DNA of 34,749 nucleotides, taken from IMG/VR virus record IMGVR_UViG_3300021085_000107, positions 1 to 34,749 of that record. The stretch is one strand, 5' to 3'. The stretch comes from a virus. Below are positions 1-17,787 of the stretch, piece by piece; within the stretch, counting starts at the first letter, position 1; the number at the start of each line of letters is the position of its first letter. Below the pieces are notes generated by a model. The model saw only the letters and a list, made by a program, of their open reading frames with translations. It was not told where the DNA came from and did no database searches. The translations under genes and the position numbers were made by a program.

Positions 1-25
1 CTCGTGGTGGTCGTGTTGGCTTCCT

Positions 26-47
26 CCCTGCGTCGGGGTTTTCGGCG
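26..47 (+). repeat. Leader repeat copy 1 with hairpin, adenine-free version
   Basis: This 22-base element contains the core CGTCGGGGTTTTCGGCG. It recurs at 1235-1256 with 20 of 22 bases identical. The arms CGTCG and CGGCG can pair around a GGGTTTT loop with one G-U pair. Alternatively CCC and GGG pair just before a T-run, which would look like a minimal terminator. In both places it lies 22-27 bases ahead of a start codon, which marks it as a leader element and supports a start at 70 for the gene behind it. Its two differences from copy 2 are both A to G. Confidence 0.7.
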
Positions 48-69
48 CCTTTTCTTGTGGGGTTTTCCT

Positions 70-486
70 ATGTCTTCTCTTTCTTTCGTTCGTGCTTCGG
101 CTCCTGTTTTCGTTCCGTTTGCTCCTGTTTCGCTCTCTCTTGGGCGTGCGGGTTCTGTGCCTTCGTCTCGTTTTGTTTCCGTTGCTTCTGGTGTCGTGTC
201 CTCTGTGGGCTGGTGCCCTCGTCGTCGTGGTTTGCTTGTCTCTCTTGCTTCCGGTGCTTCGTTTTGCTGTTTGGTTTCCGGTCTTCCTGGTGGCTTTGGT
301 GGTCCTGCTGCGGTGGCTCTTGCCGCTTCCTTGCGCTCCGCTCGTGCTTCTGGTGCTGTTGTTTCTGTGCTTGGGGCTCCTGGTGCTCGTGGTTCGGTTT
401 GCCCTGGCTACTTCTGCGGTCTTGCTGTTCCGGCTGACTCTGGTCCCTCTTACGAGGACCTGGTGAACGCTCGTCTTTTTGCTTAA
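70..486 (+). CDS. Adenine-purged gene, reduced-alphabet protein of unknown function
   Basis: This 138-residue protein is of unknown function. From base 71 to 409 the + strand has no A at all, so codons 2-113 use only ten amino acids (F, L, S, C, W, P, R, V, A, G). The last 25 residues regain Y, D, E and N. Because every stop codon and every complement of a stop needs A or T here, all six frames are trivially open and openness proves nothing. The frame is chosen because it starts at the only A in the first 409 bases (ATG at 70), ends in a normal TAA at 484-486, and 74 of 112 A-free codons end in T by hand count, a clear three-base periodicity. A GTGGGG seven bases before the ATG sits exactly where GAAAGG sits before the gene at 1284. 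The stretch LVSGL...GA...VSVLG (residues ~73-103) faintly recalls DprA/SLOG Rossmann proteins; this is weak. The frame could also open upstream of the window. Confidence 0.6.
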   Translation: MSSLSFVRASAPVFVPFAPVSLSLGRAGSVPSSRFVSVASGVVSSVGWCPRRRGLLVSLASGASFCCLVSGLPGGFGGPAAVALAASLRSARASGAVVSVLGAPGARGSVCPGYFCGLAVPADSGPSYEDLVNARLFA

Positions 487-571
487 GGCTTTCTCCTTCT
501 GCTCCCTTCCTTCGGGTTGGGGGTGGTGGCGGAGTGCTTTTACTCCTAATATCTCGTGAAAGGAGATTATT

Positions 572-3190: not shown

Positions 3191-3379
3191 TTATATGGGG
3201 CTAAAGTATAGTCCCCTATTAAAAGGGAGCATCCCTCTCCCCTTAGGTTATATATAATATTATAAGTATAACTTATAGGGTATAACGGGAGTAACCTGAC
3301 AAGAGATATTACTGTGGTTACACTACAATGTTATTACAGTACTATGTGAAGTAACTTTAATATATCGGAAGGATATAAA
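3191..3379 (+). promoter_or_regulatory. Regulatory intergenic region with nested inverted repeats
   Basis: No gene is seen in these 189 bases. After the promoter-like 20-mer (3210-3229), AGGGA-GCA-TCCCT (3224-3236) is a five-base stem with a three-base loop. TATAAGT-ATA-ACTTATA (3261-3277) is a perfect seven-base stem, also with a three-base loop. AGGTTA (3245-3250) and TAACCT (3292-3297) enclose the latter. Further weak repeats (TACTGT/ACAGTA, GTTAC/GTAAC) fill 3313-3355. The region ends in GGAAGG, the ribosome binding site of the MoxR gene. Confidence 0.5.
3210..3229 (+). promoter_or_regulatory. Candidate phage RNA polymerase promoter 1
   Basis: AGTCCCCTATTAAAAGGGAG is a 17-of-20 match to the identical 20-mers at 7597 and 15301. 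All three lie between genes, on the + strand, at the head of a functional block. The layout (pyrimidines, AT-rich centre, GGGA at the end) parallels T7-type promoters, whose +1 is the first G of GGGA. The match is by eye, and start sites are inferred. Confidence 0.55.
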
Positions 3380-4405
3380 ATGGATATTAAAGAAACAAAA
3401 GAAATACTTGAGACTATACTTGAGTACAATCTAACTAGTAATAAGACTGGGGACTTTGCTGACAACATTATACCTCACTTAGTATCGTTACCTGGGATTG
3501 GTAAAACAAGTATAGTTGAGGCTATAACTAAAGAGAAAGATTGGTATCTATATACTATACCTATAGCTTCTTATGATGCAGCTGAGATTGCGGGCTTCCC
3601 AATGTTAGATAAAGAGAATAAGAAGTATGATAGGGCTAAGCCATTCTGGTTAGATACACCAACAGATAAGCCTGTAGTATTATTCTTTGATGAGATATCA
3701 CAAGCACCTACAGCCAATGTTAATGTGTTAGCTATGTTAGTTAATGAGAGGAAGATAGGCGAACATAAACTTAACGATAATGTTATGATAGTGTGTGCAG
3801 GTAATGCTATGTCTCATAGGGCAGGTACAAATCCTTTACCATCTCACTTTAAAGATAGGGTAACCTTCCTTGAAGTAGAGCCTGATCTAGAAGCCTTTAT
3901 GAGTTATGCTAACAGTAAGAAGTTACATGAGTATATTGTAGGTTTCTTAAGGAATAGACCATCATTCCTATCTATATTTGATCCTAAGATAGATTCTTGT
4001 CCATCACCAAGATCATGGATGAGGGTTAACACTATACTTAAGATGGGTATGCCTTATAAGCTTAGAAATCATACTATTAAGGGTCAAGTAGGGGAAGCAG
4101 CTCAAGCTGATTTCTTAGGTTATCTAAGAGTAGCTGATAAGATACCTGATCCACAACTAATACTATCAGGTGAGTGTAAAGATATACCTGAAGATAATGT
4201 TGTTATGTATGCTTTATGTGCGGCATTATCTACGTTAGTAACTACTACAACTGCAAGACACTTTGTTAACTACCTTAGTATACTACCTAACAAAGAGTTT
4301 GCGGCATTTACTATCAGAGATGCTTTACAGAGAGATAAGAAACTTAAGGCTAATAAGTATGTAACATCGTGGTTTATGTCTGAAGGTAAGACCTTATTAC
4401 TCTAA
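3380..4405 (+). CDS. MoxR-family AAA+ ATPase
   Basis: This 341-residue ATPase is of the MoxR/RavA type. Visible motifs are Walker A (LPGIGKTS, residues ~38-45), Walker B (VVLFFDEIS), an arginine-bearing loop after NVNVLAMLVNER, and sensor 1 (VCAGN). MoxR proteins typically work as chaperone-like remodelers for a partner with a VWA domain that binds the substrate and metal. Exactly such a partner is encoded at 5464-6579 in the same block, so I infer a two-component remodeling complex. The start ATG 3380 follows GGAAGGATATAAA. The gene is headed by candidate promoter 1 and followed by a hairpin. The target, phage or host, is unknown. Confidence 0.85.
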   Translation: MDIKETKEILETILEYNLTSNKTGDFADNIIPHLVSLPGIGKTSIVEAITKEKDWYLYTIPIASYDAAEIAGFPMLDKENKKYDRAKPFWLDTPTDKPVVLFFDEISQAPTANVNVLAMLVNERKIGEHKLNDNVMIVCAGNAMSHRAGTNPLPSHFKDRVTFLEVEPDLEAFMSYANSKKLHEYIVGFLRNRPSFLSIFDPKIDSCPSPRSWMRVNTILKMGMPYKLRNHTIKGQVGEAAQADFLGYLRVADKIPDPQLILSGECKDIPEDNVVMYALCAALSTLVTTTTARHFVNYLSILPNKEFAAFTIRDALQRDKKLKANKYVTSWFMSEGKTLLL

Positions 4406-5463: not shown

Positions 5464-6579
5464 ATGGATGCTCAAACAAAAGTAAGCAGAGCTATAATTA
5501 AACTTGTAGCTAACTACACTTTCTACGGTACATGTGCACTTAGATTAAACGTCAGAGAAACTACTGACTATAAGACTATGTGTACTGATGGTAGATCTAT
5601 ACTATGGAACAAAGAATTTGTAGATGAATGTAGTGAAGAAGAAGTAATGGGCACTATAGCACATGAGGTATGGCATGTTATATTCGGACATCATTTCCGC
5701 ATGGGTAAACGTGAACATAAGAAGTGGAATATAGCTACAGACTTCTCTATAAATAATAGTTTAATAGAAGAAGGATTTAGCCTACCACCGGGTGCTTTAA
5801 TAGATGATAAGTATATTAACATGAATGGAGAAAAGGTATATGATCTAATAGATGATGATGAATATAATCAAGCTCCTTCCTGGGGTGGTGTACTACCTAT
5901 AACCGATGAGCAAGGTAATCCTCTTACAGGTGAAGAATTAGAGCAAGCTAAAGATGAAGTAGATCAGATGATAGCTTCAGCGGCTCAAGAGGCTAAGAAA
6001 GCTGGACAAGAAATTAGTGGTAAGTTATCTGATTTAGTTCAGAGTATAAGAGAACCTCAAGTTAACTGGAAGTCTTACTTACCTACTTATCTTATGAATA
6101 GCAATCCCGATAGTCCTTCGTGGAAGAGACCTAATCGTAAGCTGTTATCTGAGTTTGAATTATATACTCCTGCTATGATATCTAATACACTAGGACCTGT
6201 AGCTGTCGTTATAGATACCTCTGCATCTGTATCTAAAGCTGAGAGAGAAGTGTTCTTATCAGAGTTACAATCAATAAACGAAACCTTAAAACCTAAATCA
6301 ACTCATGTAATATGTGTGGACACTACTGTAGCTACATGTTATGACTTCGATCCTTACGATGATATAACAGAGTTAGCTCTTGTAGGTGGTGGTGGTACAG
6401 ATATGTCACCAGGATTTAAGTATGTAGAAGAATGTCTTCCTGAAGTAGAGAATATACTTTGCTTCTCGGACTGTGAGTTCTGGGATTGGCCTCCAGAACC
6501 TGAAAAGCCTGTGTTATGGCTATCAACTGGTCAGAATAAAGAAAACCCTTATGGCACACTTGTGTCTGTAAAATTCTAA
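5464..6579 (+). CDS. Putative zinc metallopeptidase with C-terminal VWA-like domain (COG3864/DUF2201 type)
   Basis: This 371-residue protein has two parts. The N-terminal domain carries the zinc-protease motif HEVWH (residues 67-71), followed by FGHH, as in the DUF2201 N-terminal metallopeptidase-like domain. The C-terminal domain is VWA-like, with the MIDAS-type motif D-T-S-A-S (from residue 251) and a GGGGTDMSPG loop. An acidic, Gln- and Glu-rich linker separates them. Such proteins pair with MoxR ATPases, and one lies upstream at 3380. I infer a metal-dependent remodeling or proteolytic complex acting in the host cytoplasm. ATG 5464 has only a weak ribosome binding site, so coupling with the preceding small gene is likely. 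Confidence 0.85.
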   Translation: MDAQTKVSRAIIKLVANYTFYGTCALRLNVRETTDYKTMCTDGRSILWNKEFVDECSEEEVMGTIAHEVWHVIFGHHFRMGKREHKKWNIATDFSINNSLIEEGFSLPPGALIDDKYINMNGEKVYDLIDDDEYNQAPSWGGVLPITDEQGNPLTGEELEQAKDEVDQMIASAAQEAKKAGQEISGKLSDLVQSIREPQVNWKSYLPTYLMNSNPDSPSWKRPNRKLLSEFELYTPAMISNTLGPVAVVIDTSASVSKAEREVFLSELQSINETLKPKSTHVICVDTTVATCYDFDPYDDITELALVGGGGTDMSPGFKYVEECLPEVENILCFSDCEFWDWPPEPEKPVLWLSTGQNKENPYGTLVSVKF

Positions 6580-10316: not shown

Positions 10317-12155
10317 ATGACAATATATGCGTGGGACATCGAAGCGAATGGCTTCCAAGATGTAGCGGACACAATATGGGTTTCAGTAATGCGTAACTTA
10401 GATACAAAAGAGTTACATATCTTCAGTGACCATGATGATAAGTACCCTAACCTATCTGAATCATTTAAGTTATTAGATGATGCTACAGGTATTATAGCAC
10501 ACAACGGTATGAGATATGACCGTGTAGTGTTAGATAAAGTAGCTGGATACGCTATAGATCGTAACAAGATAATTGATACGGTAATATACTCAAGGCTAAA
10601 TGACTTCCATCGTAAGAAAACATTTAGAAAACATAGTCTTAAGGCTCTTGCTATACAAGCAGGAGAAGAACAGAAGATGGATTATGATGGTGGCTTTGAT
10701 AACTACTCTGATCATATGGTAGAATACTGTGTAGCAGATGTTGATGCTAACATAGCTGTGTATCATATGCTTATGAAAGAGTATGAACAAGTTAAGAAGA
10801 CTAACCCTAACTATGATGATGCAATTAATATCGAGCATCAGATGGCTTACTGGTCTAGTGAGCAGATAAGAAATGGTTGGGAAATAAACGAAGAACTACT
10901 GGACAGTACTATAACTAAAATAAAAGGCGAAGTGAATGATATCGAAAGAAGAGTCGAACCAAAGCTTGGAACACTTACGATTACAATCGACAAAGAACCG
11001 AAGACAGCTAAATACAAGAAGAACGGAGAATACACCGCTGTTTCTGCAAGGCTACTCAGCGACTATCTTGGGCGCTATGTTGATGTGTCTGATGCTTTAT
11101 CTGATAATCCCCCAATAAAACCTGGAGAAGAGTTTCAGAGACAAGAAACAGTTGAGGCAAGGCTAGGTAACCAAGAACATCTTAAAGAATTTCTTTACAC
11201 GATAGGCTGGGAACCGACTCAATGGAACTGGAAGAAAATAAACGGACAGTTTCATAAGGTAAGCCCTAAGTTAACTACAGATAGCTTAATAAAGCTAGGT
11301 GATATAGGTAAAGATATAGATAAATACTTTACACTAAGAGCAAGACATAGCATACTAACTGGATGGAAGGAACACATACATGATGGAAGATTATATGGTG
11401 ATGTTATTGATATTGGTGCCGCTACTGGTCGTCAAACACACAAGATAATAGCTAACATACCCTCACCTAAAGCTACTTATGGTAGCGAGATACGCTCAAT
11501 GTTTATCTCTGCTAAAGATAAGGTGCTTATATCAGCTGACGGTGCAGGTTATCAAGCCAGAGTAGTAGCTCACTTTGGTAAAGATCAAGAGATGTCTGAT
11601 GAGATATTGAAAGGAGATATACACCAGAAGAACGCTGATGCTATACAGTGTACTCGTAATGAAGCTAAACCTTTCTTCTTTGCTTTCTTATTTGGTGCAG
11701 GAGGAGTGAAACTAGGTACTATCCTAGGTAGATCTTCTATTGCAGGTAATAAAGCTAAAGATGCTTTCTTAAATCGCTGGCCTGCATTGGCTAACTTAAC
11801 AGAGAAAGTAAAGAACGTAGCTCAACAACGAGGTTACTTACGTGGACTTGATGGTCGTCGTATTTACACTGAAGAAGCATACAAAGCATTCAACTACCTT
11901 ATACAAGGTACTGAAGCTATACTAATGAAACGTACTATTGTACGAATCAACGAAGCCTTTGAGAAAGAAGGTATAGAAGCGAAGCAATTACTGTTCTACC
12001 ATGATGAATGTACGTGGGAAGTATCTCCTGAAGATGCTATCAAAGCAGAACCAATCATACGTAAGTGGTTTATTGAAGCACCTAAAGAATTAGGTGTAGA
12101 GATAATGGAAGCAGGTGATTGTAAAATAGGTAACGATTATTTAGAGGTGCACTAA
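10317..12155 (+). CDS. Family A DNA polymerase with 3'-5' exonuclease
   Basis: This 612-residue replicative polymerase is of the Pol I/T7 gp5 type. The exonuclease has WDIEANG (D7 and E9), AHNGMRYD and YCVADVD. Motif A is SADGAGYQAR, with catalytic D408 and Q413 at the position of the T7 E480/Klenow E710 steric-gate Glu. Motif B is RNEAKPFFF, with F455 at the E. coli F762/T7 Y526 position. Motif C is HDE, with D563. It is about 90 residues shorter than T7 gp5, and exonuclease to motif A is about 67 residues shorter, so the thioredoxin-binding insertion is probably absent. It ends in TAATG with the DUF6899-like gene. Confidence 0.95.
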   Translation: MTIYAWDIEANGFQDVADTIWVSVMRNLDTKELHIFSDHDDKYPNLSESFKLLDDATGIIAHNGMRYDRVVLDKVAGYAIDRNKIIDTVIYSRLNDFHRKKTFRKHSLKALAIQAGEEQKMDYDGGFDNYSDHMVEYCVADVDANIAVYHMLMKEYEQVKKTNPNYDDAINIEHQMAYWSSEQIRNGWEINEELLDSTITKIKGEVNDIERRVEPKLGTLTITIDKEPKTAKYKKNGEYTAVSARLLSDYLGRYVDVSDALSDNPPIKPGEEFQRQETVEARLGNQEHLKEFLYTIGWEPTQWNWKKINGQFHKVSPKLTTDSLIKLGDIGKDIDKYFTLRARHSILTGWKEHIHDGRLYGDVIDIGAATGRQTHKIIANIPSPKATYGSEIRSMFISAKDKVLISADGAGYQARVVAHFGKDQEMSDEILKGDIHQKNADAIQCTRNEAKPFFFAFLFGAGGVKLGTILGRSSIAGNKAKDAFLNRWPALANLTEKVKNVAQQRGYLRGLDGRRIYTEEAYKAFNYLIQGTEAILMKRTIVRINEAFEKEGIEAKQLLFYHDECTWEVSPEDAIKAEPIIRKWFIEAPKELGVEIMEAGDCKIGNDYLEVH

Positions 12156-15327: not shown

Positions 15328-17787
15328 ATGGAAGATAACTTGAAAGACCCTCTAAATGAAGTGGTGGATTATCTAATAACAAAAGTTTCTAGTGTAAATA
15401 TGAATAACCCTAAAGCAAATAAGGGTGCTCAGATTTTACGTACTATATCTAGCTTTAAAGAGAGCTTACCTAATATAGTACAAGTAGCTTTCGATAAGAT
15501 GTCCTCTAACTTTACTAGAGAATATCCTGAACAACCTATAGGTCTAGCTAAAGTTACACAAGTAAGTACAGGTATTGGTGAACACGTATTCACTAGATAC
15601 TTCAATGCTAAGTGTAGCTTTCATCAGTCAATAAGGACAGGTGACTTAGTGCTAGAAGCCTATGTACAATCAGGCTTTATTACAGTTAAAAGGGCAGAAG
15701 GCTTTGGCGCTTACAATGCTCAAGCACCTTATATGATTGAACCAACAGACCGTTGGGAAGAGATAGGTGAGTTTAAACTTATTGAAAGTAAAGGATTACT
15801 CGTATATACAGTAGATGTGATACCTGAAGCTATAAGTAATATAATGCAACCTAAGAACTACCCTTTAATAAAACGATGGGGTATATCAGCACCTCAAGAA
15901 CAGAAAGATAAGTTTAATAATGTTTATATTGACTCATCTTTTGTTAGAGCAGCTAATAATCTACAACAAACCTCCTGGAAGATAAATCCAAAGGTATTAG
16001 ATGTTCTTATAGATAAAATAGAAGATATACTACCTGAAGATACACCTATGTATAAAGATGCTATACCTAAATCAGTATTAAAGACTGCATATGAGAAGTA
16101 TCAAAAGAACCCTTCTTCAGCTAACAAACAAGCGTATAATACTATAGCTAAAGAATGGGAAAAGACTTTAAGACCTCTACAAGTTAGAGCTAAACGTGCA
16201 GAGATTAAAACTACTTTAGGTAAAGCTAAACAACTAGCTGAGTGGCCTAGGTTTTATTCTTTAGTAGATCTAGATTACAGAGGTAGAGTATACTACAAAG
16301 AACCTTACATGAACTATCAAGGTAACGATATGGCTAGAGGGCTTATGTCCTTCAGTGAATCTAAATTAATTGATGGTGAAGGTAAGAGAGCTTTAGCTAT
16401 ACACACAGCTAACTCTTACAATGAGAAGTATGATGTAAATAAAATACCTAGCTGGGTAGAAGAAGACTATAATGATATGCTTATTAAAGAAGGTATAGAT
16501 ACCATAAGTGTAGATAAGTTTTCTCTTGAAGATAGAATAAACTGGTTTAATAATAACTGGGATTTGATAGAGAACACAGCTAACAATAGCATCTTACATA
16601 AATGTGAGAAGCCAGTAGTGTTTCTAGCTTGTTGTATAGAGTGGTGTGATATAGCTGATATGGAAGATGCAGGTGAAATGCCAACATCAAGTATACCTGT
16701 AGCTATTGACGGCACATGTAATGGTTACCAACATTCAGCCGCACTATCTAGAGATAATAAGACAGGTAATTTAGTAGCACTACAAGACAGTGCAGTACCA
16801 CATGACTTATATGTTAAGGTAGCTCAAAAGATAGTTGAGTTAGCTCCTGATTTCTTTGTAAACAGACCTATGTCTTATGCAGAGATACGTAAGTTAATCT
16901 CTAAGAGAGCTACAATGACAAGAGCCTACTCTGCAGGAGCACAAACAATAGCTGAATCAATGTATTCTGATTGTGTACAGGCTGGCGCAGATGAACAGTA
17001 TAATATAACTCAAATAGATTGTGATGAGTTAGCTCCACATATACTTAAGGCTATTGAACATGTGTGTCCTGGTTCTCAGACAACAATGAAGTTCCTACAA
17101 GACTTAGCGCAATGGGAGCTAGGTACTTTTGAGTATCAAGACCCTGATGGTAATAAGATATCTAATTCTACTATAAGTAAGTACAAGAAAGAAGCTCGTA
17201 TAGCTAACAAAGAACAAAGAGCTAATCCTACTGTAGAAAACACACTAGTATTAAACAAGATTAACTCTAAGTTATCTGAGTGTAAACTAGTATTAGTTAA
17301 AGGCTATGCAGGTGATGATATACGTTGGATGACTAAGTCAGGCTTCCCTGTTATATACAAGGTTAATGCTACACGACAAGACACTTGTAAGTCTACCTTA
17401 CGTGGTGTAATTGGTGGTGCATCTAAACAACCAGGGCGTATCAATCACGTAGCTAAGATATACTTAGATACAACAAACAGAAGAGAAGCTAGCGCAGGTA
17501 TCTCTCCTAACTACATTCATTCACAAGATGCTACTCACATGGCACTAGTGATAGATAAATTCGGTATCAACTTCGGTGCAGTACATGATAGCTTTAGTTG
17601 CCATGCCTCTGATGTTGAATTATTAAAACAAATAACACAAGAAAAATTCGTTGAGATGTACAGCAACGATAACCCCTTGGAAGCAGTTAAAGATTGTGTA
17701 ACAAATAATAACTGCACCATAGAAGTACCAGAGCTTGGTGACCTAGATATATTCGAAGTCATTGGTTCACGTAACTTCTTTTCATAG
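15328..17787 (+). CDS. T7-like single-subunit DNA-directed RNA polymerase
   Basis: This 819-residue enzyme (T7: 883) has all core motifs. DLDYRGRVYY is the DxxGR element. Motif A is VAIDGTCNGYQH, with D461. Motif B is KRATMTRAYS, with K526 and Y534 at the eight-residue spacing of T7 K631/Y639. IHSQDATH precedes motif C VHDSF, with D754. It would transcribe phage genes from its own promoters, for which the 20-mer at 3210, 7597 and 15301 is the natural candidate. Unlike in T7, the gene lies after the replication genes. Domain order and length are normal, with no truncation. Confidence 0.95.
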   Translation: MEDNLKDPLNEVVDYLITKVSSVNMNNPKANKGAQILRTISSFKESLPNIVQVAFDKMSSNFTREYPEQPIGLAKVTQVSTGIGEHVFTRYFNAKCSFHQSIRTGDLVLEAYVQSGFITVKRAEGFGAYNAQAPYMIEPTDRWEEIGEFKLIESKGLLVYTVDVIPEAISNIMQPKNYPLIKRWGISAPQEQKDKFNNVYIDSSFVRAANNLQQTSWKINPKVLDVLIDKIEDILPEDTPMYKDAIPKSVLKTAYEKYQKNPSSANKQAYNTIAKEWEKTLRPLQVRAKRAEIKTTLGKAKQLAEWPRFYSLVDLDYRGRVYYKEPYMNYQGNDMARGLMSFSESKLIDGEGKRALAIHTANSYNEKYDVNKIPSWVEEDYNDMLIKEGIDTISVDKFSLEDRINWFNNNWDLIENTANNSILHKCEKPVVFLACCIEWCDIADMEDAGEMPTSSIPVAIDGTCNGYQHSAALSRDNKTGNLVALQDSAVPHDLYVKVAQKIVELAPDFFVNRPMSYAEIRKLISKRATMTRAYSAGAQTIAESMYSDCVQAGADEQYNITQIDCDELAPHILKAIEHVCPGSQTTMKFLQDLAQWELGTFEYQDPDGNKISNSTISKYKKEARIANKEQRANPTVENTLVLNKINSKLSECKLVLVKGYAGDDIRWMTKSGFPVIYKVNATRQDTCKSTLRGVIGGASKQPGRINHVAKIYLDTTNRREASAGISPNYIHSQDATHMALVIDKFGINFGAVHDSFSCHASDVELLKQITQEKFVEMYSNDNPLEAVKDCVTNNNCTIEVPELGDLDIFEVIGSRNFFS

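Follow-up and report, generated by a model that had tools for sequence, protein, structure and literature searches.

T7 is a podovirus with an RNA polymerase of its own, and its gene 0.3 (Ocr) is a small anti-defence gene that comes first among the early genes; we know of no base purge in genes of this type. Protection of a message by removal of a recognition sequence is the principle of single-protein production with MazF, in which ACA-less messages survive while the others are destroyed. Enzymes directed at adenine include some Csx1/Csm6 enzymes, which cut after adenosines (PMC7192623), and the mRNA ADP-ribosyltransferase of the antiphage system CmdTAC, which modifies adenine in mRNA and prefers GA (PMC11618068).

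The DNA analyzed herein (the window) comprises 34,749 nucleotides of the virus record IMGVR_UViG_3300021085_000107. Judging by its sequence, it belongs to a relative of Roseobacter phage CRP-7, whose early region starts with positions 1–532 of the window. It shares with the CRP-7-type podoviruses the DNA polymerase (87% identity), the T7-like RNA polymerase, and an early arm on the + strand and a late arm on the − strand in CRP-7 order. The early arm starts with the A-free unit, where the early (+) and late (−) arms meet. The features of the window are as follows:

1–69, + strand: leader of the first early transcript, cut short at its 5′ end because the contig begins inside it; no A.
6–43, + strand: conserved RNA hairpin from a consensus fold, core GGCTTCCTCCC at 18–28, with a UCCUCCC loop (anti-Shine-Dalgarno-like CCUCC).
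26–47, + strand: intergenic hairpin CCCTGCGTCGGGGTTTTCGGCG; a similar one precedes the gene in CRP-7, L006, L007, L068, and L011.
57–62, + strand: GTGGGG, a putative A-free Shine-Dalgarno-like element; the same TTGTGGGGTTTTCCTATG is found in CRP-7, L007, and L068.
70–486, + strand: A-free gene for 138 amino acids, ATG start, TAA stop, weakly OB-like predicted fold; homologues and purifying selection.
487–532, + strand: A-free 3′ untranslated region, no A.
531–546, + strand: hairpin GGAGTGCTTTTACTCC at the end of the purge, ahead of gene 2; seen in the sequence, with an equivalent in L011.
572–1039, + strand: gene 2, the first gene past the purge, with ordinary A content; PHROG 15166, a family of unknown function.
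1235–1256: A-containing copy of the 26–47 hairpin, CCCTACGTCGGGGTTTTCGACG.
1284–1739, + strand: conserved early gene that served as bait for relatives; 64–68% identity in six contigs.
10317–12155, + strand: DNA polymerase; 87% identity to CRP-7 and 56% to the L004 contig.
15328–17787, + strand: T7-like single-subunit RNA polymerase; Pfam RNA_pol, E 1e-57.

The early region also contains a typical pair of a MoxR-like AAA ATPase and a DUF2201 metallopeptidase/VWA protein (3380–4405 and 5464–6579). A 21-mer, YCCTTTTAATARKGGACTATA, is repeated at 3227, 7614, and 15318 (− strand reading) and is also found, in opposite orientation, in the inter-arm region of relatives; it is likely a promoter of the phage RNA polymerase or a related signal. 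A hammerhead ribozyme of type II is located just 5′ of the conserved early gene in L002 (570–633), L006 (5912–5975), L007 (5912–5975), L008 (771–832), and L009 (5918–5979); it is missing at the equivalent place in the window and in L011. Self-cleavage of early transcripts may occur in these phages.

Exactly 10 A occur in 1–532 (at 70, 410, 437, 452, 455, 458, 466, 467, 485, and 486), which leaves A-free runs at 1–69, 71–409 (339 nt), and 487–532. This recount agrees with the preliminary description, in which one A in 1–409 (at 70), ten in 1–532, and none in 487–532 had been counted and the remainder of the window had been called AT-rich with plentiful A. Outside 1–532, the A content is 33% and the longest A-free run measures 30 nt. 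Under a first-order model of the remaining window, the 339-nt run has a probability of ~10^-61 per start, and in 889 kb of loci, duplicates included, A-free runs beyond this locus family reach at most 84 nt, in a GC-rich contig. With the amino acids given and the codon usage of the window, A-free codons at all 131 residues of the ten-letter set have a probability of 10^-36. Nine of the ten A sit in 410–486, that is, in the C-terminal part, which is mostly absent from the closest relative. Because the contig starts within the leader, the complete unit reaches further upstream and is longer (~660–690 nt in CRP-7 and L007). Downstream, the A content climbs steadily away from the early start (533–2700, from ~26% to 44%) and GC drops in parallel; the same rise (25% to 37%), again with a parallel drop in GC, is seen in L009 (5520–7600), which carries no A-free gene.

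The A-free leader and gene recur in five independent sequences, namely the window, the cultured isolate CRP-7 (MK613349; record positions 57,384–57,994), L004 (112–663), L007 (4492–5071), and L068; the L007 copy sits deep within its contig. The CRP-7 record opens at the following gene, and the + strand A-free gene is unannotated there. A − strand gene, gp72 (57271–57966, corresponding to L003 37271–37966), runs antisense to it and is probably a false gene call caused by missing stops. Passages on CRP-7 in the 2019 paper make no mention of the A-free property (PMC6918029). A long A-free run is absent from four other marine phages (CRP-4, CRP-6, and two pelagiphages). No relative was found among 84,980 genome species or, in a search without positive control, among 198 Epibacterium-family genomes. 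The sole match to the leader pattern GTGGGGTTTTCCTATGTC, in L005, is unrelated and due to chance, as are three matches to TTGTGGGGTTTTCCTATG in a genome-wide pattern search. The relatives are roseophage-type marine phages; similar A-poor genes in cyanobacterial replicons, mentioned in the preliminary description, found no support.

Further relatives show the purge in part or not at all. L006 combines an A-free leader (201 nt) with a homologous gene of 27% A, L011 an A-poor leader with a homologous gene of 14% A, and in L008 and L009 the gene is absent and the leader contains ordinary A. The preliminary description had regarded homologues with normal A content as evidence against a purge. In part the objection applies, as one homologue is normal (L006) and another intermediate (L011), and the purge is thus specific to certain lineages. 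Since these two genes encode the same protein, the purge depends on lineage and not on fold. Together with the gene shared by the window and L004, which has stayed A-free in both (see below), they point to host or circumstance, rather than the fold of the protein, as what governs the pressure. The sample comprises at most seven informative members, and the gene history is unrooted.

Both edges of the purge are sharp and coincide with landmarks of gene expression. The long A-free tract starts directly after the A of GGTTAGG in CRP-7, L006, L007, and L068, and the complete leaders of CRP-7, L007, and L068 (~225 nt) are A-free past TTAGG. GGTTAGG closes a conserved, GT-rich, promoter-like stretch; a simple scan found no sigma-70 consensus there, and hence the promoter is a putative one. 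The 3′ edge falls at or near the hairpin, ahead of gene 2 and its A-rich ribosome-binding site. GT-rich tracts of ~60–70 nt that are C-free (G-free on the other strand) lie upstream of the A-free unit in L003 (37312–37374), L004 (9–66), and L068 (784–854).

Within the leader, the UCCUCCC-loop hairpin shows two-sided compensatory change in five of 14 consensus pairs (five sequences), whereas several inner pairs are broken in the window copy. A–U pairs of L008 and L009 appear as G–C or G–U in the A-free genomes with an invariant loop; the leader structure is thus kept while A is replaced even in stems. About 50 nt around this hairpin are identical in CRP-7, L006, L007, L068, and L011, and the loop resembles the 16S anti-Shine-Dalgarno sequence.

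At codon level, no A is found at any of 536 fourfold-degenerate sites in the five A-free genes, compared with 17 of 60 in L006 and 23 of 93 in L011. Synonymous differences between A-free copies are solely C/T, G/T, and C/G, none of them involving A, and the gene of the window and that of L004 are both still A-free at a synonymous divergence of 0.36. The purge is hence maintained against ongoing mutation. In the window gene, A is confined to ATG, TAA, and codons for Tyr, Asp, Glu, and Asn; across all A-free genes, it remains in start, stop, Tyr, Asp, Glu, Asn, and Lys codons, with one Ser and one Thr codon, both in L007, as the exceptions to the rule that only needed A is kept. Glu is always encoded by GAG and Lys by AAG; the stop codon is TAA in five of five genes, though TGA or TAG would save one A. 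Excluding the start codon, the retained A stands in GA context at four of nine positions in the window gene and at four of eight in CRP-7. Neither an avoidance of A before U among the retained A (p 0.16) nor an excess of third-position A in L011 as a sign of relaxation (p 0.11) is significant. The ten-letter set makes up 80% of the L011 protein compared with 41–59% in neighbours, which is suggestive only.

The preliminary description had located the pressure at the level of the nucleic acid rather than the protein. This is supported, as the purge spans the untranslated leader, the 3′ flank, and every fourfold site in five copies, and further by L006, in which the leader is A-free though its gene has normal A. 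A codon-level reading by a tRNA or anticodon nuclease is disfavoured because leader and 3′ flank are purged too.

Frame 70–486 is, by its pattern of substitution, a real protein under purifying selection. Nucleotide differences between the window and L004 number 11, 5, and 40 at codon positions 1, 2, and 3, and pN/pS ranges from 0.19 to 0.40 for A-free pairs within one clade. Conserved positions of the six-member alignment include L56, V57, C67, G108, F115, and C116 (window numbering). An antisense ORF as the true gene was dismissed, as stops occur in the antisense frames of L006 and in all but one of L011 and selection is seen in the + frame. Neither Pfam nor PHROGs nor PADLOC (which covers defence, not anti-defence, proteins) contains a match to the protein family, and sequence matches in the PDB are short or weak, with no known family assigned. 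Two AlphaFold2 models (pLDDT 69 and 57) show the order β-β-β-α-β-β, with the helix placed after the third of five strands as in an OB barrel, and the best Foldseek matches are small OB folds with E above 0.01. The predicted OB-like fold is a weak hint; the names of the structural matches support no function, and no toxin is implied. Between the window and L004, the A-free protein is 89% identical and the DNA polymerase 56%, and the gene was therefore probably transferred recently. Recent transfer is common in anti-defence genes.

We tentatively propose, at somewhat less than an even chance, that the A-purged first early cassette has its transcript as the target and that its product serves host takeover or anti-defence, being made at a time when RNA that contains adenosine is at a disadvantage. 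The cassette of CRP-7-type podoviruses would consist of promoter, leader, small protein gene, and 3′ hairpin, and selection would exclude A from the sense strand from just past the promoter to near the hairpin ahead of gene 2. The selected molecule would be the transcript (or its DNA strand); the transcript is suggested because the edges match its presumed extent and the leader RNA structure is conserved. Gene position, mobility, and lineage dependence suggest for the product an early role in host takeover or anti-defence; it would be made when adenosine in RNA is under attack by the host or lacking. In broader terms, a natural phage unit would have given up one nucleotide and thereby hidden its message, or the synthesis thereof, from a bacterial agent, immune or physiological, that is directed at adenosine in RNA and that the first protein would then disarm; this, too, we hold to be possible at just short of an even chance. 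The simplest agent would be an adenosine-specific ribonuclease, as are some Csx1/Csm6 HEPN enzymes, or another single-base A-directed agent, and it would have to penalize A nearly irrespective of context. After the product has acted, the downstream A-containing genes would become expressible. By analogy, the base specificity needed would be offered by adenosine-specific HEPN ribonucleases such as Csx1/Csm6 and by agents that target the ATP pool (RADAR). Evasion of GA ADP-ribosylation of the CmdT type is a poor fit because GA contexts survive: GA avoidance is not seen, and GA is common among the retained A. Against escape speak the A-free leader ahead of an A-normal gene in L006 and the absence of the gene in L008 and L009. 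Residual A is mostly base-paired (10 of 11 positions in L007), but nearly as often in dinucleotide shuffles, and the single-strand prediction of this reading is therefore unsupported.

Rather than the finished message, its synthesis could be the constraint: transcription of an A-free unit builds in hardly any ATP or none, which would be an advantage where, for example, a defence drains the ATP pool, poisons it, or provides an A analogue that terminates the chain. The purge begins at the presumed transcript start and includes stem positions that would be shielded from single-strand agents, and RADAR turns ATP into ITP during infection (PMC9994260). However, translation and aminoacylation need ATP as well, and A is tolerated in the start codon and twice in TAA; we therefore regard this explanation as unlikely, if worth keeping in mind.

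An A-free sense strand is equivalent to a T-free template strand, and the latter could be the real constraint if modified thymine or uracil in the phage DNA blocks the host RNA polymerase or invites base excision, so that the first gene could be read solely from a T-free template. In favour of this, the effect is limited to the first gene, which is presumably transcribed by the host. Yet no thymine-modification gene was recognized among the + strand window proteins scanned (late region partly covered), and gene 2 and the L006 gene carry normal T in the template, which makes this reading improbable. Of the same low probability is a protein that acts on A-containing RNA, in host shut-off or repression, and exempts its own message by the lack of A. 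The weakly OB-fold-like prediction is compatible with nucleic-acid binding, but in L006 the homologue is encoded by a gene of normal A content, the models are of low confidence, and no match attains E 0.001.

A structured regulatory RNA from which A is excluded to shape the structure would agree with the conserved leader hairpin and with the folding of the L007 unit, which is better than that of 20 shuffles (z −3.9). The window unit, however, folds no better than shuffles (z −1.0), the hairpin is retained with A–U pairs in L008 and L009, and the ORF is under clear coding constraint. We thus give this reading little credence, and the specialized UGC-only RNA put forward earlier is disfavoured likewise, as the frame is a conserved protein.

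A mutational process that removes A from this segment on one strand, such as A to G deamination, would account for a region that covers coding and non-coding sequence alike. The substitution spectra make it very improbable. Inside the unit, CRP-7 and L007 differ by 29 C/T, 19 G/T, 7 C/G, 1 A/G, and 1 A/C, and in the next ~850 nt by 17 A/G, 14 A/T, 13 C/T, 6 G/T, 5 A/C, and 2 C/G; differences involving A hence amount to two of 57 within the unit and 36 of 57 in the adjoining stretch (Fisher 3e-12). A/G and C/T changes are near equal outside (17/13, 21/21), also farther downstream, as opposed to 1/29 inside. In the leaders compared with L011, A is swapped with T more often than with G, the A of L011 differing mostly as A/T rather than A/G. 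There is no special G enrichment, the edges fall on gene-expression landmarks, and an equilibrium A below 1% would be required at fourfold sites. Adenine-directed mutagenesis or deamination, which the preliminary description had listed among the possible causes, is accordingly at odds with unbiased neighbouring substitutions, with A not being turned specifically into G, and with the sharp boundary. Adenosine-deaminase hypermutation is disfavoured, since clustered A to G replacement is not seen in the spectra, and no reverse transcriptase (diversity-generating retroelement) was found in the subset of window proteins scanned. An assembly or sequencing artefact, for which the position of the tract at the first base of the window contig would speak, is already refuted and has next to no probability, as the same feature is present in the CRP-7 isolate genome and in the interior of the L007 contig.

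A text search of the openly licensed literature yielded no published precedent for a one-base purge of gene, leader, and 3′ flank, and to our knowledge the selected loss of one base from all three is undescribed so far. The purge would imply a host factor that penalizes each A in one transcript. If escape from an agent acting on adenosine in RNA is correct, marine alphaproteobacteria would harbour an undiscovered, single-base-specific antiphage defence, and escape by alphabet reduction would be a new counter-strategy. The cause is directly testable by host range and recoding because one lineage has normal A and another is intermediate. The unit is also a natural message of three letters, and its protein core, built from essentially ten amino acids, is under purifying selection.

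Among known systems, CRP-7 is of the same phage group and has the same A-free leader and gene before its early genes; it differs in its record, with the + strand gene unannotated and gp72 called antisense over it. No sequence relation to genes of the T7 gene 0.3 (Ocr) type was found. The MazF system is engineered, removes a trinucleotide rather than every A, and involves no natural phage gene. Csx1/Csm6 of type III CRISPR cleave RNA after adenosine and would spare an A-free message; they are host-side enzymes. CmdTAC differs by its GA preference, as GA is common among the A retained here. RADAR is likewise an antiphage agent on adenine nucleotides, but targets ATP/dATP pools. Phages with 2-aminoadenine (Z) DNA also abandon adenine; they do so by genome-wide chemical replacement, whereas the phages described here avoid it in one transcription unit.
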